Below, in pieces: positions 1,529 through 45,000 of a stretch of 54,256 bases of DNA. A model generated the notes under the pieces. That model was given only the letters and a program-made list of their open reading frames with translations, made no database searches and had not been told where the DNA came from. Both the position numbers and the translations under genes were made by a program. Source of the DNA: Selenomonas ruminantium subsp. ruminantium ATCC 12561 (lineage in GTDB: Bacteria; Bacillota; Negativicutes; Selenomonadales; Selenomonadaceae); NCBI RefSeq assembly GCF_000424065.1, contig NZ_AUJE01000030.1, positions 1 through 54,256 on the forward strand, in the 5' to 3' direction. Every line of letters starts with the position of its first letter. Within the stretch, counting starts at the first letter, position 1.

Positions 1529-2101
1529 ATGCGCAAGACATGGATACCTTTATTACTCGCTGCTTGCCTGTTCAGCCCGACAACCACTTATGCCGGTTTT
1601 GGCACAGGCATTGGCATCAGCTTTCCAGCTTCAGGCTCAAGCACAGTAAGCAGTGGCAATACCTATGCCGCCCTGCAGTATGAAGCGCTGACCGAAGAAC
1701 TTTCTCTATCCGAAAAAAGCGGCCGCCTGCTGTTGGAACTCAAAGTCAGCAACAACGGCGACACGCCTTATACGGCCAGCCATCGCACGGGCCAAATCTA
1801 CGATTTTATCATCACCGACAAAAACGGCAAAAAAATATGGCAATGGTCGGATGGCATGGCCTTTACTCAGGCACTAAGCACCACCACCATTGCCCCGCAC
1901 AGCTTTGAAGTCTACACGGCCGAACTCGACAGCAAGGCATACCGCAAAATCAAGGAAAACGCCGTACTGGCTACCGCCTATATCCTTGATACTCCCTGCC
2001 GGCTGTCGGCAAAACTGCCCACCCGCACCGCCTCCAAAAGCACACCGGTAATGATTCATGGCGGTGTGATATTCGGCAACGGCCGCTGGGTTGATGACTA
2101 A
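1529..2101 (+). CDS. Secreted BsuPI-domain protein (proteinase-inhibitor-like)
   Basis: 190 residues. Residues 1-22 form a signal peptide (RK, hydrophobic core LLLAACLF, cleavage near TYA/GF). The mature part resembles the BsuPI intracellular proteinase inhibitor fold: a beta-rich stretch with LLLELKVSNNGDTPYTA, GQIYDFIITDKNGKKIWQWS and a late EVYTAELD strand. In the family the domain was named for an inhibitor of subtilisin-like proteases, but many exported homologues have no known role. GATAGGAGAATTATT precedes the ATG. Its stop overlaps the stop of the convergent lipoprotein gene by four bases. Confidence 0.7.
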   Translation: MRKTWIPLLLAACLFSPTTTYAGFGTGIGISFPASGSSTVSSGNTYAALQYEALTEELSLSEKSGRLLLELKVSNNGDTPYTASHRTGQIYDFIITDKNGKKIWQWSDGMAFTQALSTTTIAPHSFEVYTAELDSKAYRKIKENAVLATAYILDTPCRLSAKLPTRTASKSTPVMIHGGVIFGNGRWVDD

Positions 2102-3087
2102 TCTTCCAACGCCAAAACGCCATAAGCCGAACAGCCGCCACAAAGCAGCACCCGGTCACCATCTAATGGATAAATATGTAAAGCACGAAAACCGTTTAAC
2201 GGTTCATTGAAAATTTTCTTGCCATTTACCCGGTCGAAAATCAGCAAATCGCCCTCTCGTCCCACCTGCAAAACATAATGTTTAGTTACAGCCCAATCCG
2301 CCGCTTTACCCAGCTTTCCCAAATAACATGTACGCAGTTCACCTTTTCGGTTAAACAGGCAAAGCATTTGAGGATGATTATCACCTAATGACAAACTGAC
2401 AAAAAGATCATCACCCTCCAAATGAATCGGACGCAAAAGAGCCGTAGGCTCCTCTAAGCTTTTTCTAGCCTCAGATAGTATGACCTGTGTTTCACCAATA
2501 GAGGTTCCTTCCAGCTTAGCCAGACAAATCGTGTCCGGCGCTTGCACCATAAGCAGTTCGCCATTAGGCGTTCCCACCATGCGATTGTATTTCACATTCC
2601 AGGGAACACTTCCCCTATATGATTTTTTCCCATCATATAAGCCTAACATACCGTCCTTGCGTTCAAAGAGAACATACTCCTTACAAACCGTCAGATTATC
2701 ACTGCGGCCTTTACTTTCTCCTATCTCCCTGCGTCTCAGGTACTTGTCACTCTGCTCAGGCTTACTGTATTGATAAATTCCCACATAATTGCCGTCATAG
2801 CCGCCAATGCCCGAGGGAGGACGATATTCCTCTCCCGGCTGATAAATCGCTCCATGGGCAAAGACAGCGAGCCCTCCCGTACCAACAAAATCACGGTTAG
2901 GCGGCGGGTCCGGCAATTTAAAAATCCGCCCCTGATGCCCGCCAAAGGAAAAGGTCATTGCCGGCTGTCCCATATCCTCCAGCAAAGAAACCGGCTTATC
3001 CGCCTCAACCGCCATTTCCGCACAGCCTCCTGCCAATAGCAAAACAGATAATACGCCCAGCAACACACTACAGAGAAAATTTTTCAT
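2098..3087 (-). CDS. Lipoprotein, predicted beta-propeller-like, function unknown
   Basis: About 329 residues. The N-terminus is a lipoprotein signal with hydrophobic stretch VLLGVLSVLLLAGGC, the Cys of LAGGC being the lipidation site, so the protein should be anchored to the cell envelope. The rest has short repeated strand-rich segments that end in dipeptides such as LYDG, LFNRKG and IFDRVNGK, the pattern of PQQ- or WD-like propellers with about five or six blades. I start at the second ATG (3087), which has AAGGGGG six bases upstream; the first ATG at 3093 is too close to it. I do not recognise a specific family. It ends convergently with the BsuPI gene. Confidence 0.65.
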   Translation of the reverse strand: MKNFLCSVLLGVLSVLLLAGGCAEMAVEADKPVSLLEDMGQPAMTFSFGGHQGRIFKLPDPPPNRDFVGTGGLAVFAHGAIYQPGEEYRPPSGIGGYDGNYVGIYQYSKPEQSDKYLRRREIGESKGRSDNLTVCKEYVLFERKDGMLGLYDGKKSYRGSVPWNVKYNRMVGTPNGELLMVQAPDTICLAKLEGTSIGETQVILSEARKSLEEPTALLRPIHLEGDDLFVSLSLGDNHPQMLCLFNRKGELRTCYLGKLGKAADWAVTKHYVLQVGREGDLLIFDRVNGKKIFNEPLNGFRALHIYPLDGDRVLLCGGCSAYGVLALED

Positions 3088-3177
3088 CCCCATCCCCCTT
3101 TTCCGTTTGCCAGATTTTTCATTTACAATTCTTATTCGCTAAAAAATAACATTTTCCTTCACTTTTTGCGCCAAAAA

Positions 3178-3201
3178 AGCCCTGACCTTTCGGTCAGGGC
3201 T
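3178..3201 (-). terminator. Strong intrinsic terminator, probably the original rplQ operon terminator
   Basis: A 10-base-pair GC-rich stem, AGCCCTGACC at 3178-3187 and GGTCAGGGCT at 3192-3201 around a TTTC loop, is followed on the minus strand by six T. It now follows the truncated antirepressor reading frame. The left attachment-like core lies 20 bases upstream. If the prophage is removed in thought, this terminator comes about 20 bases after the rplQ stop codon. Confidence 0.85.
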
Positions 3202-3382
3202 CTGCTTGCTGTAATATGAAATTACACGAGCTCATTTTTGAGCAAAAGTCCACACCTTCCACAAAACCGTACTCAACCATGCGCGGGAACCAATCTTTAT
3301 ACGCAGTTCCTACTTGCAAGAACTCATGCAAGCTCCGGCCATCCACCTTGTTTTCGTTGTTGATTTTGATAAGCTCGTTCAT
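3194..3382 (-). pseudogene. Truncated phage antirepressor (AntA/AntB N-terminal domain)
   Basis: The first 50 residues match the AntA/AntB antirepressor domain: an ELIKI start, GRSLHEFLQVGTAYKDWF and YGFVEGVDFCSKM. The family similarity stops there, and the frame runs through the attachment core into the terminator stem and ends at 62 residues, so the rest of the gene is gone. In intact phages this protein counters the repressor. It follows cro by 29 bases and shares its orientation, as an early lytic gene would. Product probably non-functional; a truncated DNA-binding peptide cannot be excluded. Confidence 0.7.
3221..3233 (-). repeat. Left attachment-like core of the prophage remnant
   Basis: On the minus strand it reads GAGCTCGTGTAAT. 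The right copy at 7058-7070 reads GAGCTCGTATAAT, and its bases are the rplQ codons for E-L-V-stop. Reading the left copy as the end of rplQ gives the same E-L-V-stop, followed 20 bases later by a strong terminator. The position fits an attL/attR pair made by site-specific insertion. Confidence 0.6.
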
Positions 3383-3411
3383 GCTTATACCTCCTTGTTA
3401 CTTAACTCCGT

Positions 3412-3609
3412 TTAGTTGTTAAAAACATCAGCAAAAAGCTCCTCCATAGGAATACCGCTATCCACTTCCAGCTTCTTCATTAAATATGGTCTAGGCGTTT
3501 TAGTGCCCAGTTCCCAACAGTTCCATGCCTGTTGAGTTACGCCATAAGTAATGGCAATATCTGCCTGCGAGCGTTTGCCGCGATATTCAATAAGCTTCTC
3601 TCTTTTCAT
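3412..3609 (-). CDS. Cro-like XRE-family regulator of the prophage
   Basis: 65 residues. A helix-turn-helix is visible at about residues 14-35: SQADIAITYGVTQQAWNCWE. Small size, position opposite the longer repressor gene, and the antirepressor fragment right behind it are the classic layout of a Cro protein that switches a temperate phage to lytic growth. I use the ATG at 3609, preceded by an AGGGGGGTGA ribosome site, rather than the TTG one codon upstream. The shared regulatory region with cI holds three operator-like palindromes. Confidence 0.75.
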   Translation of the reverse strand: MKREKLIEYRGKRSQADIAITYGVTQQAWNCWELGTKTPRPYLMKKLEVDSGIPMEELFADVFNN

Positions 3610-3624
3610 CAAGTCACCCCCCTA

Positions 3625-3718
3625 ACAATCTTTGGTAGTTATAGATTGTCACAACCGAAGGTTGTTGTCAACGTTTTTAACTACTTTTTTTCGTTATACA
3701 ATCACAACCTTGTGTTGT
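3625..3718. promoter_or_regulatory. cro/cI operator region with three palindromic operator-like sites
   Basis: Three 15-base sites share the pattern ACAAyC-N3-GGTwGT: ACAATCTTTGGTAGT at 3625-3639, the perfect palindrome ACAACCGAAGGTTGT at 3651-3665 and ACAACCTTGTGTTGT at 3704-3718. Centre spacings are 26 and 53 bases, close to whole helical turns. A TTGACA hexamer at 3666-3671 points towards cro, and TATACAAT at 3695-3702 points towards cI. The sites touch or flank these elements, as expected for mutual repression. Exact start points are not certain. Confidence 0.65.
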
Positions 3719-3743
3719 ATCATTATTCATAGGAGGTGATTGA

Positions 3744-4121
3744 ATGTCATTGTCGCAAAAGCTAAAAGACCTACGAGCCAAAAAAGGGCTTTCACAAGCG
3801 GCTCTTGCTGACATATTAGGTCTTTCTCAACAGGCCATAGGTAAATGGGAGCGTGATAAATCGACTCCTGATTACGAAACCCTGGTAAAAATCTCAAGCT
3901 ATTTTCAAGTTCCTGTTGATGACTTATTGGAAACTAAGTTCACAAGCGGGCTTCTTGGCAAATCGGAAAACTTCGTTCCGCTCGAAGATGGCGATGCCGT
4001 CCTGCAACAATCACCTAAATGCCGTGTCCTGGTTCACACCACAAAAGGGCTGCCAGACGAGGCAATGGATGACTTAATAGCAATAGCCGAAGTATATAAG
4101 AAGAAGTATGGCATTGAGTAA
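3744..4121 (+). CDS. CI-like prophage repressor (XRE family)
   Basis: 125 residues. The N-terminal XRE domain spans about residues 4-62, with the helix-turn-helix in LSQAALADILGLSQQAIGKW. The C-terminal part (EDGDAVLQQSPKCRVLV, then a helical tail EAMDDLIAIAEVYKKKYGIE) has no Ser-Lys peptidase dyad, so it is not a LexA-like self-cleaving repressor; inactivation by the antirepressor is likelier. A perfect AGGAGGTGA site precedes the ATG. It is divergent from cro and starts a plus-strand run of cargo genes, the genes expected to be expressed in the lysogenic state. Confidence 0.8.
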   Translation: MSLSQKLKDLRAKKGLSQAALADILGLSQQAIGKWERDKSTPDYETLVKISSYFQVPVDDLLETKFTSGLLGKSENFVPLEDGDAVLQQSPKCRVLVHTTKGLPDEAMDDLIAIAEVYKKKYGIE

Positions 4122-4133
4122 GGGAGGAATTCT

Positions 4134-4301
4134 ATGGATTCGGAACCTATAATATGTTATGACAAATTAGTTGACAAAGAAGATTACCTACTTATTGAAG
4201 GGTCAAAGCGGACGGTGGTTGTTATCAATAGTAGGTTACCTTTGGTAGAGCAAAATAGAATTTTATCTAAAATATTCAGAAGATTATTAAAGTTTTCTTA
4301 A
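4134..4301 (+). CDS. Small protein of unknown function downstream of cI
   Basis: 55 residues, ATG at 4134 with a strong GGGAGGA site, 12 bases after the cI stop, so co-transcribed with it. The sequence is acidic at the N-terminus (DKLVDKEDYLLIEG) and very basic at the C-terminus (RILSKIFRRLLKF). I recognise no family. Good ribosome site and operon position argue that it is real; a role as a repressor partner or immunity peptide is only a guess. Confidence 0.5.
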   Translation: MDSEPIICYDKLVDKEDYLLIEGSKRTVVVINSRLPLVEQNRILSKIFRRLLKFS

Positions 4302-4354
4302 ATTTTTATTAGTTTGCAATTAAAACTTTATGAGAATATGGGAGGAAACCACGG

Positions 4355-5680
4355 ATGGTTAAGAGACGAATATATATCTCTCTACTATCATTCTGTCTAT
4401 GCCTAATCTTATCTACTCCTGTTTGTTGTGCGGAGAAAGTTTATACATTTGTTGGCATAATTGTTGAAGATGGTATACCTTATTTCTTTTGCACTCCACT
4501 ACAATGTGCCCACCTTGTAATACTAGAATTAGAAGACATGCCTTATGCGGAAATATATATTGAAAATGATTCAGATGTAGAATCTCTATGCTATATTGAT
4601 GAAATTCCTTCGGAAGAATATATAAATCAACTACTTATATATGGCAATATTTCCTATAGGAATACTCACATTTCTGGCACAAACAATATTACATCAGGTA
4701 ATACTGTAATACCAGGGCATGGCAACATTAGCATAGGCAATGAATATATTGGAGGTGATAACAACGTTTCATCTGACAACACCATAATTCAAGGAGATAA
4801 TAATCTCTATATTGGCAATAAACACATAGCAGGTTCCAATAATGAGGCAACTGGCAATACTTATTATGGAAAAAGTAATCAGGTAAAAATTGGCGAAACT
4901 ACCGAAGGACAAGATAACAAAGTCTCGCACAATAAGGTATATGAGGGAAGCCAACAGGCATCAAGACGCCCCCAATCATCAGATAATAGCGGGGGGTTGT
5001 TTATTTTTTGTGTTTTAGTAATACCAGCATTATTGAAATTAGTTTCTTATATAATAAGAAACTTTGTAGAACCTACGAAAAAGACGACAATACCCCCAAA
5101 AATCACTGTTTCACCGATGCCAGAATCACCAACAAAACCTTTTCCAAAAGCTCCACTCAATCCAACACCAATGCCAGCACCACCGCCAACAATACATCAT
5201 CGTGTACACAAAGAAAAATATAATCCACCAAAAGCCGCACATGGTTTTGCCTTAATAGACAATGAAACAATACCTGATGTTTCTGTAGAAGTTTCCCCTA
5301 AACATAATAGGGTTTGGATAAATGTTTCATTTAGTTCCTATTCCAAAAATTACAGTTACTTATTAGGTAATATTCCTGATTTACACATACATGATTTTGT
5401 ATGTGTTAAAGCGCATGACAAATATGATGGATATAAACTTAAAACAAAAATCGTTAGAGTTGAATACATTAGTTATCCGGGCGAATATTCAGCGTGGGCA
5501 AGGTCACCTATTTTAGGTAAAGCAGATTCTCGCATTGTAACGCTTCCGAATAGTAATACGTTTCATTATGCTTGGTGTCACGAAATAAGAGATGCAAAAG
5601 AAATAATAGTATATAAAAATGAAACCGACGCTATTAAAGATGGGCTTAAACCATGCAAGCATTGTCGCCAAAAATGGTAA
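4355..5680 (+). CDS. Exported or membrane-anchored 13-residue-repeat protein with Cys/His C-terminal domain
   Basis: 441 residues, GGGAGGAAACC before the ATG. In order: a signal peptide (residues 1-26, ending TPVCCA); a small domain (27-95); eight tandem 13-residue repeats (96-199) of the form x-N/G-N-hydrophobic-x-x-G-N-x-x-I-x-G, as in TNNITSGNTVIPG and HGNISIGNEYIGG; a transmembrane helix (about 213-235); a proline-rich linker (239-285); and a C-terminal domain. That last domain ends with H404, C408, C434 and C437 in the pattern FHYAWC...GLKPCKHC, typical of a small zinc-binding tail found on nucleases and surface proteins. I do not recognise the whole protein. It is AT-rich and lies in the lysogenic run after cI, so it may be a prophage-encoded surface or exclusion factor (inference). 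Confidence 0.6.
   Translation: MVKRRIYISLLSFCLCLILSTPVCCAEKVYTFVGIIVEDGIPYFFCTPLQCAHLVILELEDMPYAEIYIENDSDVESLCYIDEIPSEEYINQLLIYGNISYRNTHISGTNNITSGNTVIPGHGNISIGNEYIGGDNNVSSDNTIIQGDNNLYIGNKHIAGSNNEATGNTYYGKSNQVKIGETTEGQDNKVSHNKVYEGSQQASRRPQSSDNSGGLFIFCVLVIPALLKLVSYIIRNFVEPTKKTTIPPKITVSPMPESPTKPFPKAPLNPTPMPAPPPTIHHRVHKEKYNPPKAAHGFALIDNETIPDVSVEVSPKHNRVWINVSFSSYSKNYSYLLGNIPDLHIHDFVCVKAHDKYDGYKLKTKIVRVEYISYPGEYSAWARSPILGKADSRIVTLPNSNTFHYAWCHEIRDAKEIIVYKNETDAIKDGLKPCKHCRQKW
4640..4951 (+). repeat. Eight tandem 39-base coding repeats
   Basis: These encode the eight 13-residue units at residues 96-199 of the cargo protein. The protein pattern is kept (paired Asn, Gly-Asn, Ile and final Gly), while the DNA copies have diverged, so the array is old and selected at protein level. 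The regular turn spacing suggests a beta-solenoid or a YadA-head-like stalk. Confidence 0.7.
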
Positions 5681-5700
5681 TTATAAAGGAGGGATTGGGG

Positions 5701-5886
5701 ATGGCAAACTTCTTTGAACGATATGTTATTCTTTGGATAGGTTGTATAGTAGGGCTAGGCTGGGATTTTACTTTCTTTACTGATGATAAAGGCTTTAATA
5801 TGACCATTCTGTCGGTAATTCTTGTTGCTATTGCTGGTGCAATTGAGTATTTAGAATATAGGTATGGCAACAACGACAAACCATAA
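5701..5886 (+). CDS. Small two-helix membrane protein
   Basis: 61 residues with an ATG at 5701 behind AAAGGAGGG; the upstream in-frame ATG lies inside the previous gene. Two hydrophobic helices, about residues 7-22 (YVILWIGCIVGLGW) and 35-49 (ILSVILVAIAGAIEYL), are joined by a short acidic loop, and the tail is charged. It lies 20 bases after the repeat protein gene and ends just before a hairpin terminator, so it closes the cI-led operon. No family recognised. Holin-like size, but position in the lysogenic run argues against lysis. Confidence 0.55.
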   Translation: MANFFERYVILWIGCIVGLGWDFTFFTDDKGFNMTILSVILVAIAGAIEYLEYRYGNNDKP

Positions 5887-5893
5887 GCACAGC

Positions 5894-5926
5894 AAAAAGC
5901 CGCCTCAACTTAATGAGACGGCTTTT
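5894..5926 (+). terminator. Terminator of the cI-led cargo operon
   Basis: Inverted repeat AAAAGCCG-C-CTCA with TGAGA-CGGCTTTT (one mismatch) starts 8 bases after the stop at 5886 and ends in a short T run. It would stop the plus-strand operon before the convergent membrane protein gene. Confidence 0.65.
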
Positions 5927-6009
5927 AGAAACTCCTTCCGCAAGTGCGGATGAGCTGATATATAGTAAGGAAAGGAACGACGATGAAAGGCAGGTGAATA
6001 CTACACCTC

Positions 6010-6402
6010 CTAAATGGATATATCATCTTTACGAATAAAAATGCCAAAAAACTGTAACATATCCTGAAACACTACAAGCACTATAGTCATAAAAAACAGC
6101 ATATTTAAACTAACTACTTTGCCTGTTTCTTTTTTCTTTTCCCTATATGCGGGAATGAACTCCAAAAAAAACTCTAATAAAACAGCTACGCAAAACCAAA
6201 TAAAGGCATAACCATAATCCGTAGCAGCTAAGAAATATGCAAAGGGACTATACTGTAATACTTTTCTTAACAGCTTTTTCACGCTAAATCCTTTAATAGA
6301 ACATAGCAAAGCGCCGACAATAGAAACGATAATCATCAATTCCACATTGCTGATATTGAACAATGACAATATAGCAGACAGAAGTATTAGTCCTATGAAC
6401 AT
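6010..6402 (-). CDS. Integral membrane protein of unknown function
   Basis: 130 residues from an ATG at 6402, which has a perfect GGAGGTGA site; longer starts upstream have none. About four hydrophobic segments: FIGLILLSAILSLF, LMIIVSIVGALLCSI, the FAYFLAATDYGYAFIWFCVAVLLEFF block, and NMLFFMTIVLVVF, separated by a basic loop (KKLLRKVL) and a charged stretch YREKKKETGK. No conserved motif tells me the family. It is convergent with the cI operon and divergent from the integrase fragment, so it is probably an independent cargo gene of the prophage. Confidence 0.55.
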   Translation of the reverse strand: MFIGLILLSAILSLFNISNVELMIIVSIVGALLCSIKGFSVKKLLRKVLQYSPFAYFLAATDYGYAFIWFCVAVLLEFFLEFIPAYREKKKETGKVVSLNMLFFMTIVLVVFQDMLQFFGIFIRKDDISI

Positions 6403-6420
6403 AGTTCTCACCTCCATATA

Positions 6421-6580
6421 TGGACAGTGCCCTGCCGATTCCGCGCGACAGGGCAAGTTTGTGGAGCAGTTGGCCGCTGTCACGCCCCCACCATTGATTG
6501 AACAGCCCTCGTTTAGAGTGTTCGCGGCCTAGTAAGGTAGCCGCATAAGCCGACACGCCTGAGCGCGTCAATAAACTCAC
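6421..6580. other. GC-rich, hairpin-prone patch of unclear nature
   Basis: Between the membrane protein gene and the integrase fragment the base composition changes sharply to GC-rich. The minus strand contains several short stems: GCCCTG with CAGGGC around a 14-base loop, and GCGGC-TA with TA-GGCCGC. Open frames exist here on both strands, but none has a ribosome site or a family I recognise. It could be an RNA leader of the membrane protein gene, a remnant of another insertion, or the scar of the integrase deletion. Confidence 0.3.
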
Positions 6581-6606
6581 TGTCTATAAGCAAAAGCTTC
6601 AAACGA

Positions 6607-6984
6607 TTGCACAAGAAAGATATATTAACATCCGGAAAAACAGCATCCAGTAGGCGCATCGTCATCATGCCGCAGTTTATAGCCGATATGCTAAAAGACT
6701 TTCGGCGCATGAACCTCTATAGCAGTGATAGAATATTTGATTTTTCCTCCGCAACACTGAATAACAAACTAGCTAGGTGCGCAGAGACAGCCGGAGTAAA
6801 AAGAATACGCATACACGACTTGCGACACTCTCACGCATCCATGCTTATCAAGGCCGGTTTTCAACCTATAGATGTTGCTGACCGGCTAGGGCACTCCAAC
6901 GCAAATATCACATTGAAAGTGTACAGCCACTTCTATGATACAAAAAGATATGAGCTCGCCAACAAACTTAATGATCTGCATTAG
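6607..6984 (+). pseudogene. int: Tyrosine-recombinase integrase, C-terminal catalytic fragment
   Basis: The residues include TSGKTASSRRIVIMP, box II HDLRHSHASML (His and Arg), LGHSNANIT and the tyrosine in KVYSHFY, so three of the four core signatures are present. The DNA-binding N-terminus and the first catalytic arginine are missing. Integrase-like codons can be followed upstream to about 6571, but an in-frame TAG at 6538 and unrelated DNA replace the rest. A TTG at 6607 is the first possible start and has no good ribosome site. The fragment lies next to the right attachment site, where the integrase of such an element belongs. The element can probably not excise by itself. Confidence 0.8.
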
Positions 6985-7000
6985 TACGCTTTTAGTACGC
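6981..7000 (+). repeat. Direct repeat beside the right attachment site
   Basis: TTAGTACGC occurs at 6981-6989 and again at 6992-7000, an 11-base period or one helical turn. The first copy contains the integrase stop codon. Tandem short repeats flanking the core are typical arm-type binding sites of tyrosine integrases; this role is an inference. Confidence 0.45.
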
Positions 7001-7009
7001 TGTAAACAA

Positions 7010-7055
7010 AAAGAACCCCGCACCCCTTATAAATAAAGGGGATACGGAGTTCTTT
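7010..7055 (-). terminator. Bidirectional terminator between integrase fragment and rplQ
   Basis: A long interrupted stem pairs AAGAAC, CCG and CCCCTT with AAGGGG, CGG and GTTCTT, with short mismatches between the blocks and a T run on each side. On the minus strand it ends the ribosomal alpha operon 4 bases past rplQ. On the plus strand it would end integrase transcription. It lies inside the inserted element, so rplQ would use a prophage-supplied terminator. Confidence 0.8.
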
Positions 7056-7057
7056 TT

Positions 7058-7070
7058 ATTATACGAGCTC
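7058..7070 (-). repeat. Right attachment-like core inside the rplQ 3' end
   Basis: GAGCTCGTATAAT on the minus strand, one mismatch from the left copy at 3221-3233. It contains the codons for the last three residues E-L-V and the stop of L17. A phage that carries the end of its target gene keeps that gene intact, which explains why rplQ is full length here. Confidence 0.6.
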
Positions 7071-7397
7071 GATGATAACCATCGGAGCTGCGTCACCGCG
7101 GCGTACGCCGAGTTTCAGGATACGGGTGTAACCGCCCTGACGGTCTGCGTATTTTGCTGCGATTTCGTCGAACAGCTTTCTTACTACATCTTCATCAGCA
7201 AGGGATGCGATTGCCTTGCGGCGGGCACTCAGGTCACCGCGCTTTGCCAGCGTGATGAGCTGCTCAGCAAACTTGCGGAGCTCTTTTGCCTTTGCTTCCG
7301 TCGTTTCAATGCGTCCATATCTGAAGAAGGAAGTAAGAATGCTAGTGAACAGCGCCTTGCGGGCTGCGGAGTTACGTCCTAATTTTCTGTAGCTCAT
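7059..7397 (-). CDS. rplQ: 50S ribosomal protein L17
   Basis: 112 residues, usual bacterial length, starting with [19 protein letters not shown], the conserved L17 N-terminus. It binds 23S rRNA near the exit tunnel. AGAGGGA precedes the ATG, and the gene lies 14 bases after rpoA as the last member of the alpha operon. Its final codons coincide with the attachment core of the prophage remnant, yet the ending IELV is normal. Confidence 0.97.
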
Positions 7398-42036: not shown

Positions 42037-45000
42037 TCATTCTCCTTGTTTTAGTTCCTTTATCAATTCATCGTCCTCATTCGAAGTATCCTGTATCGTA
42101 ATATAGCCTTCCGTATGCTCCGATACTTCAGCCACTCCCAAGATATCCATGAACAATTCATCCAATTTTTTGATATCCCTTGACGTTAGCCCATCAAACC
42201 GGATACGCATGGTAGCACCACTTGGCAAACGCAAATTAACCAGCTCTAATTCTTCAATGTCCTGCTGTGCTTTGCCTCGATTGTACCAACCACTAATATT
42301 TTTGAGCACCTTGTAAATCTTATGCGCACGCTCATTGTCGCTTATGTTGCCCAAGAAAGTCTCACTACCAGGAAATTCAAGCCAGCCACGCTCACTTTTT
42401 TCTCGCTGCGTGATTATAATATCTGTAGGCTGGATATCATGGAACTGCGCGCTGTACCCCTCAATGATATTCTCCGGTTTTTCCTGCTGGTTCACATCAC
42501 CTACATAGCCACTGAAGCCTGCTGTTTTCAGTACCTCCCGCACGCCTTCCGTGATTTGTTCATCACTTACGTTAGCATACGTTGCCTTTACAGCTTCCTG
42601 TAAATCGCTGACAGGAGATGCACCACTAGCTGCCAAAACTTCCTTTATCCTAGCCTGAATCTTTTCCGGCGGCACATGGTCCTTTTCCAACCAGCCGGGA
42701 CGCTTCTTAGCGCCCTCAATAGTCATCAACGAATAACCGCCTCGCAAGATATCTGCGCCCATAGCTACAGGATTTTCCTGTGTGTAGATTTCTGCAGGGA
42801 CATCATCCGTACTATCGCCCATATGATAGATAATCCATACACCACTCGCAACGCCTTCCCTCAAGATGCGCTCAAGGACCCCCGTGTTGCTAAGCATTGG
42901 CCAGCGACGATTACAATAAAAACCCTTTGTCATTTCTGCCACAGGCAGCCGCTCACCATTCGCAAAGAATAGACTTTTCAAAGACTTTAATTCCGTGGTA
43001 TTAAACGCTTTATCGTAGATTAGCTTATTCGTCTCTATCAAAGTCTGTGCTATCTGATTAAGGATAGTTGCTCCCGAATCGCCAGAATCTGTCCTGATTT
43101 CCCGGCACTCAATCTGCATATTATTAGCAAAATAAACCTTTTTATATAGCGCTGCTACTTCTGTTGACAATGCCATTTCTCGTTCCCGGCTGGTTTCTAC
43201 AAATTCCGGGTCTTCCAATTTATGCGCATTGATGCCATAAGACGTAGGTTTATCCTTCAAATCATTTATAGCAATAACCTGCCGCGCCAAATCCTCTACA
43301 TAGCTTAAGGGACGCGTATTATCCATATCATTACCGAATAGATTTTGACTATCATTATCCAGCAATACTTTCACCGTGCTCGGAATCAACATGACCACCA
43401 TGTTCTGATGCAAACGGGTCATATTCGCTCCCTTCTCCTGCAAAAGTTTCATGGGATCGATTTCTTTGGCATCAAGAGCAATCACCGCTACTGTTGGCTT
43501 GGTATTGTTATCTGGTATATCCTGAGGCAAACGCACATCCTGCTGTACATTGAAAAGATGATTATCTGACAATAAGGTCCCAGCCAGACTTTTTAATTTT
43601 TGCTGGATTCTCTTGGTATTCACATTTTCACGAATCTGTGCCAAAACGCTATTGAGTGTAGGATCCTGATGTGCAAAATATTTACCATCCTCGCAACGCA
43701 AGTAAAAAGCACTGCGACCAATTTCCTCCAGTGCAGTGTTGACCTGAGATGGCGGCAATACAGGAGAACTGATCATGAAAAGTGCGTCCTGCTGATTTAT
43801 GCCAAAGGCTTTTGCTGTCTTACCTTCACCTCTCGCCACCAGACTATTGAGGAACACCGTTTTCCATGTCAGCTCATACATAGGCAGTCCATCGGGGTGC
43901 GGATTTTTCCTATCCGCACGCTCAGCCTGACTAAGACCGCTTCCCAGACTGGCTGTTTCCACAGAACCAATATCTGTATTAAGTGCAGTCTTAAGGTCGG
44001 CACTACCTGTTCTCCCCAAAATTTCATCCACTGTAGCTGCATTGCGCATATCCACATTGCAAGTATGGATTAGACTAATAGGCATGGATTTCTGCCAAAT
44101 ATTCCTAATGGTCAAAGCCAGAACACGTAAAACGCCTCGTGTACCTTGGAAATTTTCAGCCAAAGACAGTTTGTTATTTAAATAATCAATAAACGTTGGA
44201 TGAAACGGATAATTTTCCACCATACGCTGAGCAAAATTCGCCATATTGGCCTCTTCCGGCAACAACGCAGCATTCTTGGCATACATTTCCGCATAAGCAT
44301 GACTGACTTCTTGAGCAGCCGACATATCTATGCTTTTAAACAGTCTCTTGGCCAAAATGGGTGCAATCTCGCTGGCCTGCACTGGCGTGACAGGTTTTGC
44401 ATTACGACTGATGACACTACCGGCGCTCTTGCTTGCTCTCTGGGCAATGGCACCAGCATCATCCTTCGTAAATTGATTAGTACCTATAATATCATTAAGT
44501 TTCTGCGACAATGCCTCTGTTTGTTTAGCAAATGCATCACTGCTGCTAGCTAATGTTACAATAACGGCAATCCCAGCATGATTTTGTGCATAGTTATTAA
44601 GTGACATCAAAAAAGCACTTAGCTGGTCAGCACCTTTCCCTGGTAATACGACTTCCAAACGAGAAGCATATTGCGCCAACTCATCAAACATCAAAATAAC
44701 TTTACGTTCACCCAGTACTTTCTCAAAAAAAGTCAAGCCTGGCGCAGCGTATTCCTCAGCTTCATCCTTAACTTCCCGATAAAGTGATTCACCACCAAGC
44801 TGTAGAGCCATTTCTCCCCAAATAGTATATGGGGAAAGTTTATCCCCCTGTGTTTTGCGCACAGCCAGTTCGTCACCGGCAATACCAACTACACTTACGG
44901 TACCAGCCTCAGGCAAGTAACTACTATCAATCAGCCCCTGTGTAACATCTTTCAATTCTTTACCACGATAAGCAATATGTACACAGGAAATGAGCGAGTG

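Follow-up and report, generated by a model that had tools for sequence, protein, structure and literature searches.

The window analyzed here, a stretch of 54,256 nucleotides from Selenomonas ruminantium subsp. ruminantium ATCC 12561 (contig NZ_AUJE01000030.1), raises the question of why the last codons of rplQ, the gene for ribosomal protein L17, occur a second time about 3.84 kb away, with a piece of an integrase gene in between. A first-pass annotation, made from the letters alone, had proposed that the 3′ end of rplQ is a prophage attachment site. Our comparisons make it very probable that the 3.84-kb segment is the remnant of a temperate phage, or of a very close relative of one, that integrated at the 3′ end of rplQ via the sequence GAGCTCGT and then decayed in place. 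The features on which this reading turns are the following.

7059..7397, minus strand: the target gene, a complete rplQ encoding ribosomal protein L17; an open reading frame (ORF) of 112 amino acids, matched at 96–100% identity in 20 of the 22 genus genomes, one of them the window's own.
7058..7070, minus strand: attachment (att) core on the rplQ side (attL in the usual naming), GAGCTCGTATAAT, with the phage base A; the same sequence stands at the phage end of contig C18 in the sister genome G017.
3221..3233, minus strand: att core on the far side (attR), GAGCTCGTGTAAT, with the host base G; the identical sequence ends rplQ in relatives with an empty site.
3178..3201, minus strand: original rplQ/alpha-operon terminator, displaced by the element; a hairpin that lies 3′ of rplQ in the 10 of 18 loci aligning through.
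7008..7057 (about), no strand assigned: phage-borne terminator-like inverted repeat between rplQ and the integrase fragment, also present at the left end of the G017 element; putatively a terminator.

Both core copies read E-L-V-stop on the minus strand, as the first-pass annotation had noted. They are 13 bases long, of which 12 are identical, and the core-to-core span is 3,837 bp. The pattern GAGCTCGT[A/G]TAAT matched the whole window only at 3221–3233 and 7058–7070; exact matches to the GAGCTCGTRTAAT pattern numbered two in the window and zero in 100 dinucleotide-preserving shuffles. With up to two mismatches allowed, the window still yielded just the same two sites, against a chance mean of 1.7. 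Since the pattern was composed post hoc with both copies known, the weight lies on the exact match and on the comparative data. The rplQ end reads ATC-GAGCTCGTATAA-T on the minus strand, so that at this end of the element the synonymous valine codon GTA replaces GTG, the stop codon is unchanged, and L17 is unaltered. Direct-repeat cores thus stand at both ends and one of them completes the target gene, as in prophage integration at a gene's 3′ end. The integrase fragment adjoins the rplQ-side copy, ending 73 bases from it, and the hairpin at 3178–3201, followed on the minus strand by a T-run, lies 19 bases beyond the left copy, where a strong terminator had been placed some 20 bases away. The same annotation had held that removing 3.85 kb would restore a complete rplQ with a normal terminator: the length and the return of the native terminator stand, but rplQ is already complete, and no reading frame is restored.

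An uninterrupted site was present in relatives. We joined by script 327 bp of rplQ to 133 bp from the left core copy onward and compared this predicted empty site with the rplQ loci of the genus other than those of the window's own genome and G017, which left 18 of the 20 genomes with an rplQ match. In 10 of these 18 loci the join aligned through both the junction and the terminator stem, as the first-pass annotation had predicted. Identity was 97.1% over 448 columns in G013, 99.0% over 392 in G009, and 98.5% over 394 in G010; it was 92.9–97.7% in G014, G004, G006, G005, and G002, and about 88% in G008 and G015. In G009 and G010, host sequence corresponding to window positions 2051–3125 lies 0.5–0.75 kb past the terminator, compared with about 40 bases in the window. 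In seven loci the rplQ end was kept and the alignment was lost 8–31 bases beyond the junction, where other flanks follow. Such differing flanks had been named in advance as evidence against the attachment site; here they belong to more distantly related species of the genus and do not overturn it.

The rplQ end of G003 carries the phage-type GTATAAT, and the next ~60 bases align to the phage end of the window with a score of 72, after which host sequence resumes. The highest score was 50 in 200 mononucleotide shuffles and 43 among 17 other rplQ flanks; against those native flanks the G003 flank reached at most 51, and the true phage end of G017 scored 139. With moderate confidence, this one short match suggests that G003 may hold a nearly erased fossil of the same left phage end.

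An occupied site was found in G017. The integrase (Int) nearest to that of the window is encoded on its contig C18; it is full length (346 amino acids when counted from the start codon chosen, 358 over the whole open frame), is 91–92% identical to the window fragment over their common part, and has the Arm-DNA-bind_4, SAM-like, and catalytic domains (PF14657, PF14659, and PF00589). Contig C18, with int at its end, terminates in ...ATTATACGAGCTC, the core on the opposite strand. The rplQ contig, C9, terminates in ...ATCGAGCTCGT, that is, at GAGCTCGT, and contig C22, read outward, terminates in ...ATAGAGCTCGT, again at GAGCTCGT. Contig C2 carries the last 95 bases of C22, then GTGTAATTTCATATTAC, and then the native terminator. 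The right junction is therefore contained on one contig, C2; at the left junction the contigs part precisely at the core. Three contig ends lying exactly on the core are what coexisting integrated and excised forms would cause; C2, however, runs unbroken through the right junction, which an abundant attB form would make less likely. In addition to int, C18 encodes SSB, a DnaB-like helicase, an HNH nuclease, a cytosine methylase, and a divergent pair of helix-turn-helix (HTH) regulators. The phage arm at the right junction (G017:C2, L112:1–105) reads AAGGAAG...ATG ATA GAG CTC GTG TAA; AAGGAAG could be a ribosome site for the five-codon frame M-I-E-L-V that the core makes there, which is probably due to chance.

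Natural base differences locate the crossover. GTG is found both in the empty sites closest to the window and in the far copy, against GTA in the phage-side core; directly ahead of the core, rplQ has C (ATC) and the phage arm of G017 has A (ATA). These differences confine strand exchange to the eight bases GAGCTCGT. Both the window and G017 carry a repeat pair, TAGTACG-4 bases-TAGTACG, at the stop codon of int, which it overlaps. G017 has another such pair on its opposite arm, about 90 bases from the core (C22:101); none was found on the far side of the window element. A looser form of the pair stands beside 25 of 102 related integrases (from 103 loci, one of which had too little sequence). 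By analogy with other integrases, the pairs are putative Int arm-binding sites.

Next, we examined what the element still contains.

6565..6984, plus strand: tyrosine integrase gene, 3′ part only, covering residues 208–346 of 346 (PF00589, PHROG 1), 91–92% identical here to G017 Int.
6982..6999, plus strand: arm-type-like repeat pair TAGTACG-CTTT-TAGTACG, which overlaps the stop codon of int; no other pair of this kind was found in the window.
6010..6399, minus strand: hydrophobic ORF that separates the cargo region from the int fragment, from the ORF list.
5701..5886, plus strand: small membrane-like ORF, 61 amino acids from its ATG, inside ORF 5653–5886.
4355..5680, plus strand: 441-amino-acid protein between the repressor and int, from the ORF list.
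3744..4121, plus strand: CI-like HTH repressor (HTH_3, 6.7e-19; PHROG 8 and others, transcription regulation).
3412..3612, minus strand: small HTH protein of Cro-like type, encoded divergently to the repressor and so named from its position and a weak PHROG 2328 match (5.5e-4); no Pfam match.
3234..3382, minus strand: AntA antirepressor gene, of which the 5′ part remains, truncated at the att core via a GAGC overlap (AntA PF08346, E = 2.4e-12).

The int fragment matched Phage_integrase (PF00589, E = 6.5e-13) and PHROG 1 (3.9e-27). Compared with the G017 integrase it lacks residues 1–207, and with them the N-terminal domains and R194, which is invariant in the integrase alignment and which we take to be the first catalytic arginine. 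The AntA match covers profile positions 1–38 of 68, and the gene runs into the far core. The one intact homologue found in the genus (G003, 243 amino acids) matches the window gene up to a point directly after AAAATGAGC, with 143 of 176 aligned bases identical; the joint therefore uses the GAGC that is common to the core. It could have come from a microhomology deletion or from aberrant Int action. The CI-like repressor and the AntA antirepressor are phage genes lying inside the element, and no structural gene was recognized there in the Pfam and PHROG scans.

The region between repressor and int is a frequent place of lysogenic cargo. The 441-amino-acid protein encoded there has no family in Pfam, PHROGs, or PADLOC; its 79 pattern matches in viral contigs included no relatives, and relatives within the genus were seen for just the 45 residues at its C-terminus. 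By reading, it has a signal-peptide-like start, GNN/GDNN-type repeats, a membrane-like stretch, and a cysteine-containing C-terminus. ORFs 5701–5886 and 6010–6399 likewise had no match in Pfam, PHROG, or PADLOC. A defense function of the cargo was considered and dropped: the three ORFs gave no PADLOC match, and the 18 matches of the 3744–4121 ORF were to HTH regulators.

Together, these observations suggest the following course of events. A temperate phage with a tyrosine integrase, or a very close relative, would have recombined within the eight-base GAGCTCGT at the 3′ end of rplQ. Its core copy would have recreated the last codons and stop of rplQ (GTG to GTA) and brought its own terminator-like repeat, leaving L17 unchanged. 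During decay in place, one deletion or replacement would have taken the first 207 codons of int, and another would have cleared all sequence between a point within the antirepressor gene and the far att core, the ends joining at the shared GAGC. The outcome would be a 3.84-kb scar with a repressor gene and a possible cargo gene. With int residues 1–207 and the far-side repeats gone, the remnant lacks the intact integrase and paired att arms of a mobile prophage and presumably cannot move on its own.

Could the two cores have arisen without any integration, by chance similarity or duplication of the rplQ end? The copies are indeed short, with 12 identities in 13 bases, and matches at two mismatches are expected by chance; however, the exact match was absent from all 100 shuffles, relatives carry empty sites, and phage ends in G017 lie at the same core, which makes such an origin barely credible. 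Slightly more can be said for a complete small satellite or integrative mobilizable element (IME) whose native attP lies in the antirepressor gene. The segment is only 3.84 kb long, it is bounded by two exact cores, and the antirepressor frame continues into the core. Against this, the integrase is missing 207 of 346 residues, the antirepressor is cut within its AntA domain when an intact homologue has 243 amino acids, and the right arm of the related G017 element differs and carries arm-type repeats. Moreover, Pfam and PHROG scans of seven element ORFs gave no match to a replication, primase, rep, or relaxase family; an element with a truncated integrase and no replication or mobilization match among these ORFs does not resemble a satellite of the phage-inducible chromosomal island (PICI) type or an IME. 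We therefore regard this alternative as very unlikely.

Within the reading as a decayed prophage, a variant concerns how the far end was made: Int itself may have recombined the attR core with a GAGC-containing pseudo-site within the antirepressor gene, so that the remainder of the phage was lost exactly up to the core. The joint falls inside the eight-base core (AAAATGAGC|TCGTG), and selection on rplQ cannot explain this position because rplQ is at the opposite end. Conversely, the intact homologue shares just four bases (GAGC) with the core at that point, an overlap typical of microhomology, and this is a single event with no replicate; the variant is thus a possibility that we hold to be somewhat the weaker one. 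Doubtful, in our view, is a wider scenario in which the rplQ 3′ end would be a recurrent hotspot in the family, reached by at least two independent lineages of a target-hopping integrase, Int would have trimmed the window prophage via the pseudo-core, and the relic would persist with a repressor and a novel membrane cargo protein that perhaps guard the cell against related phages.

Several points weigh against the prophage reading itself. The G017 contigs are broken at the left junction, and the join between rplQ and the phage end is on no single contig. No structural gene is linked to the G017 element: the sole terminase family tried (PF04466) matched only an unlinked contig, C4, and among five proteins of C22 four match PHROGs of unknown function and one matches none. 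The word "phage" therefore rests on lysogeny and replication genes. Finally, the window element and the C18 DNA match only at the int end (87% over 497 bases) and in a 31-base stretch, so the window element's own parent has not been seen whole.

To place the integrase, we searched 380 genomes of the class and found 23 with an integrase at E ≤ 1e-70 to G017 Int. Three of the 23 integrases are at rplQ, those of the window and G164 directly and that of G017 via contig ends. Other relatives are at the 3′ ends of rplL (G169; PF00542), guaA (G143, tested as PF00958; also assigned for G144, G052, and G049 by similar C-termini), a YceG/MltG-like gene (G159; PF02618), and a NUBPL-type ATPase gene (G217; PF10609, 168 bases away), and the G014 integrase converges on the 3′ end of an unassigned gene. 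At six loci (L122–L127) the next gene runs in the same direction as the integrase; for these and a few more, no target was identified. No tRNA was found downstream of the 23 integrases, two of which have short downstream sequence, and a tRNA target was rejected for the window, which contains no tRNA. The identifiable targets of the G017-type integrase family are thus 3′ ends of protein genes.

An integrase alignment was used to scan named genomes, and the best 80 loci among the matches listed were inspected; they are mostly from Firmicutes and not a census. In the DNA compared at these loci no rplQ was found, nor any tRNA within 700 bases, some contigs being shorter and one ending almost at the integrase stop codon; 14 of the 80 face a guaA-like C-terminus, as judged by reading. 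Against phage records, the window int fragment matched 1,046 records, all below 60% identity, and against viral contigs the best of 38 loci was 48% identical, with no rplQ in any of the 38. A search of the viral collection for proviruses flanked by rplQ returned 11 pattern matches and no relatives, and lends no support. Among the 23 integrases, those of G015, G003, and G023 (L117, L118, and L119) are related to one another and lie at the 3′ end of one shared, unassigned conserved gene with a C-terminus like VTVIYFTEVHD, which had no Pfam match in the one of three copies tested.

The rplQ site of G164 appears to have been reached independently. Its integrase shares about 40% identity with G017 Int (39.4% by tblastn and 41% in another comparison), and a 66-base exact repeat stands beside it at rplQ and again 14.2 kb away (43344–43409 and 57543–57608), including the last bases of rplQ and a terminator-like hairpin. 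The element between them (L220:5345–19609, corresponding to G164:C2:43344–57608) encodes a phage-type primase, a terminase small subunit, and an HNH protein, in addition to what we take to be insertion-sequence-like ORFs: two nearly identical transposase-like ORF pairs and another transposase-like ORF. In a small, midpoint-rooted tree of 24 integrases, with 8 of 21 inner branches well supported, the window and G017 sequences form a pair (100/100) inside a clade of six rows (100/100), G014 among them, and the G164 sequence groups with the rplL integrase of G169 and the G063 integrase (97/99). Because G164 lies with an rplL-targeting integrase, rplQ was probably reached twice, and independent arrival of two integrase lineages is the simplest reading of the tree.

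Decayed prophages with retained repressor and cargo genes are a general class. The window element resembles them in having lost its late genes and most of its integrase with the att cores in place; nothing about it is fundamentally different, the fusion of antirepressor and att core being an unusual detail. It is the fossil, well documented here, of an ordinary process. G017 Int has all three domains of the PHROG 1/PF14657-PF14659-PF00589 integrases, whereas the window copy, matching PHROG 1 and PF00589, is truncated to the C-terminal catalytic part.

The choice of target also has parallels. According to the available part of PMC4701971, streptococcal integrative and conjugative elements (ICEs) occupy the 3′ ends of rplL, rpsI, rpmG, guaA, and lysS, and those in the first four create repeats of 12–54 bp and change the product little or not at all. 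The elements described here share with them a housekeeping or ribosomal gene 3′ end, short direct repeats, and an intact or nearly intact product, and guaA and rplL are targets of both those ICEs and the relatives of the window integrase; in contrast, the streptococcal elements are conjugative and the targets listed in that part of PMC4701971 do not include rplQ, whereas ours are phage-like and target rplQ. The statement of the first-pass annotation that ribosomal protein genes are rare targets compared with tRNA genes accordingly needs qualification, as the identifiable targets of this integrase family are 3′ ends of protein genes and PMC4701971 lists rplL, rpsI, and rpmG. Literature searches naming rplQ or ribosomal protein L17 returned no report of an attachment site there, and the accessible portions of PMC7556507, PMC1924603, PMC4131195, and PMC11124052 do not describe integration at rplQ; the Staphylococcus aureus mobile element placed in the rplQ region in the excerpted text of PMC7556507 is, by locus tags, about a dozen genes away. 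The TIGER/Islander resource, to judge from what is available of PMC12424338, may already hold such islands unremarked. Within the literature searched, the kind of element is known and rplQ as its target is apparently unreported.

The essential last gene of the alpha operon, rplQ, thereby joins the landing sites of integrases, with its crossover pinned to eight bases by natural base differences. One integrase family whose targets include rplQ, rplL, guaA, and an mltG-like gene is, moreover, a small natural data set on how a target can change while the gene is preserved.

A locus in G010:C2 (L218:2595–3950) was tried as a sister remnant of the window element and rejected, as it proved to be a different decayed element beside another gene. 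It is of the same phage type, has a broken integrase, and lies beside a gene starting MEITGIIAEYNPFHNGHL. Short blocks of this element are common to window positions 5887–6936 and occur there in the same order.

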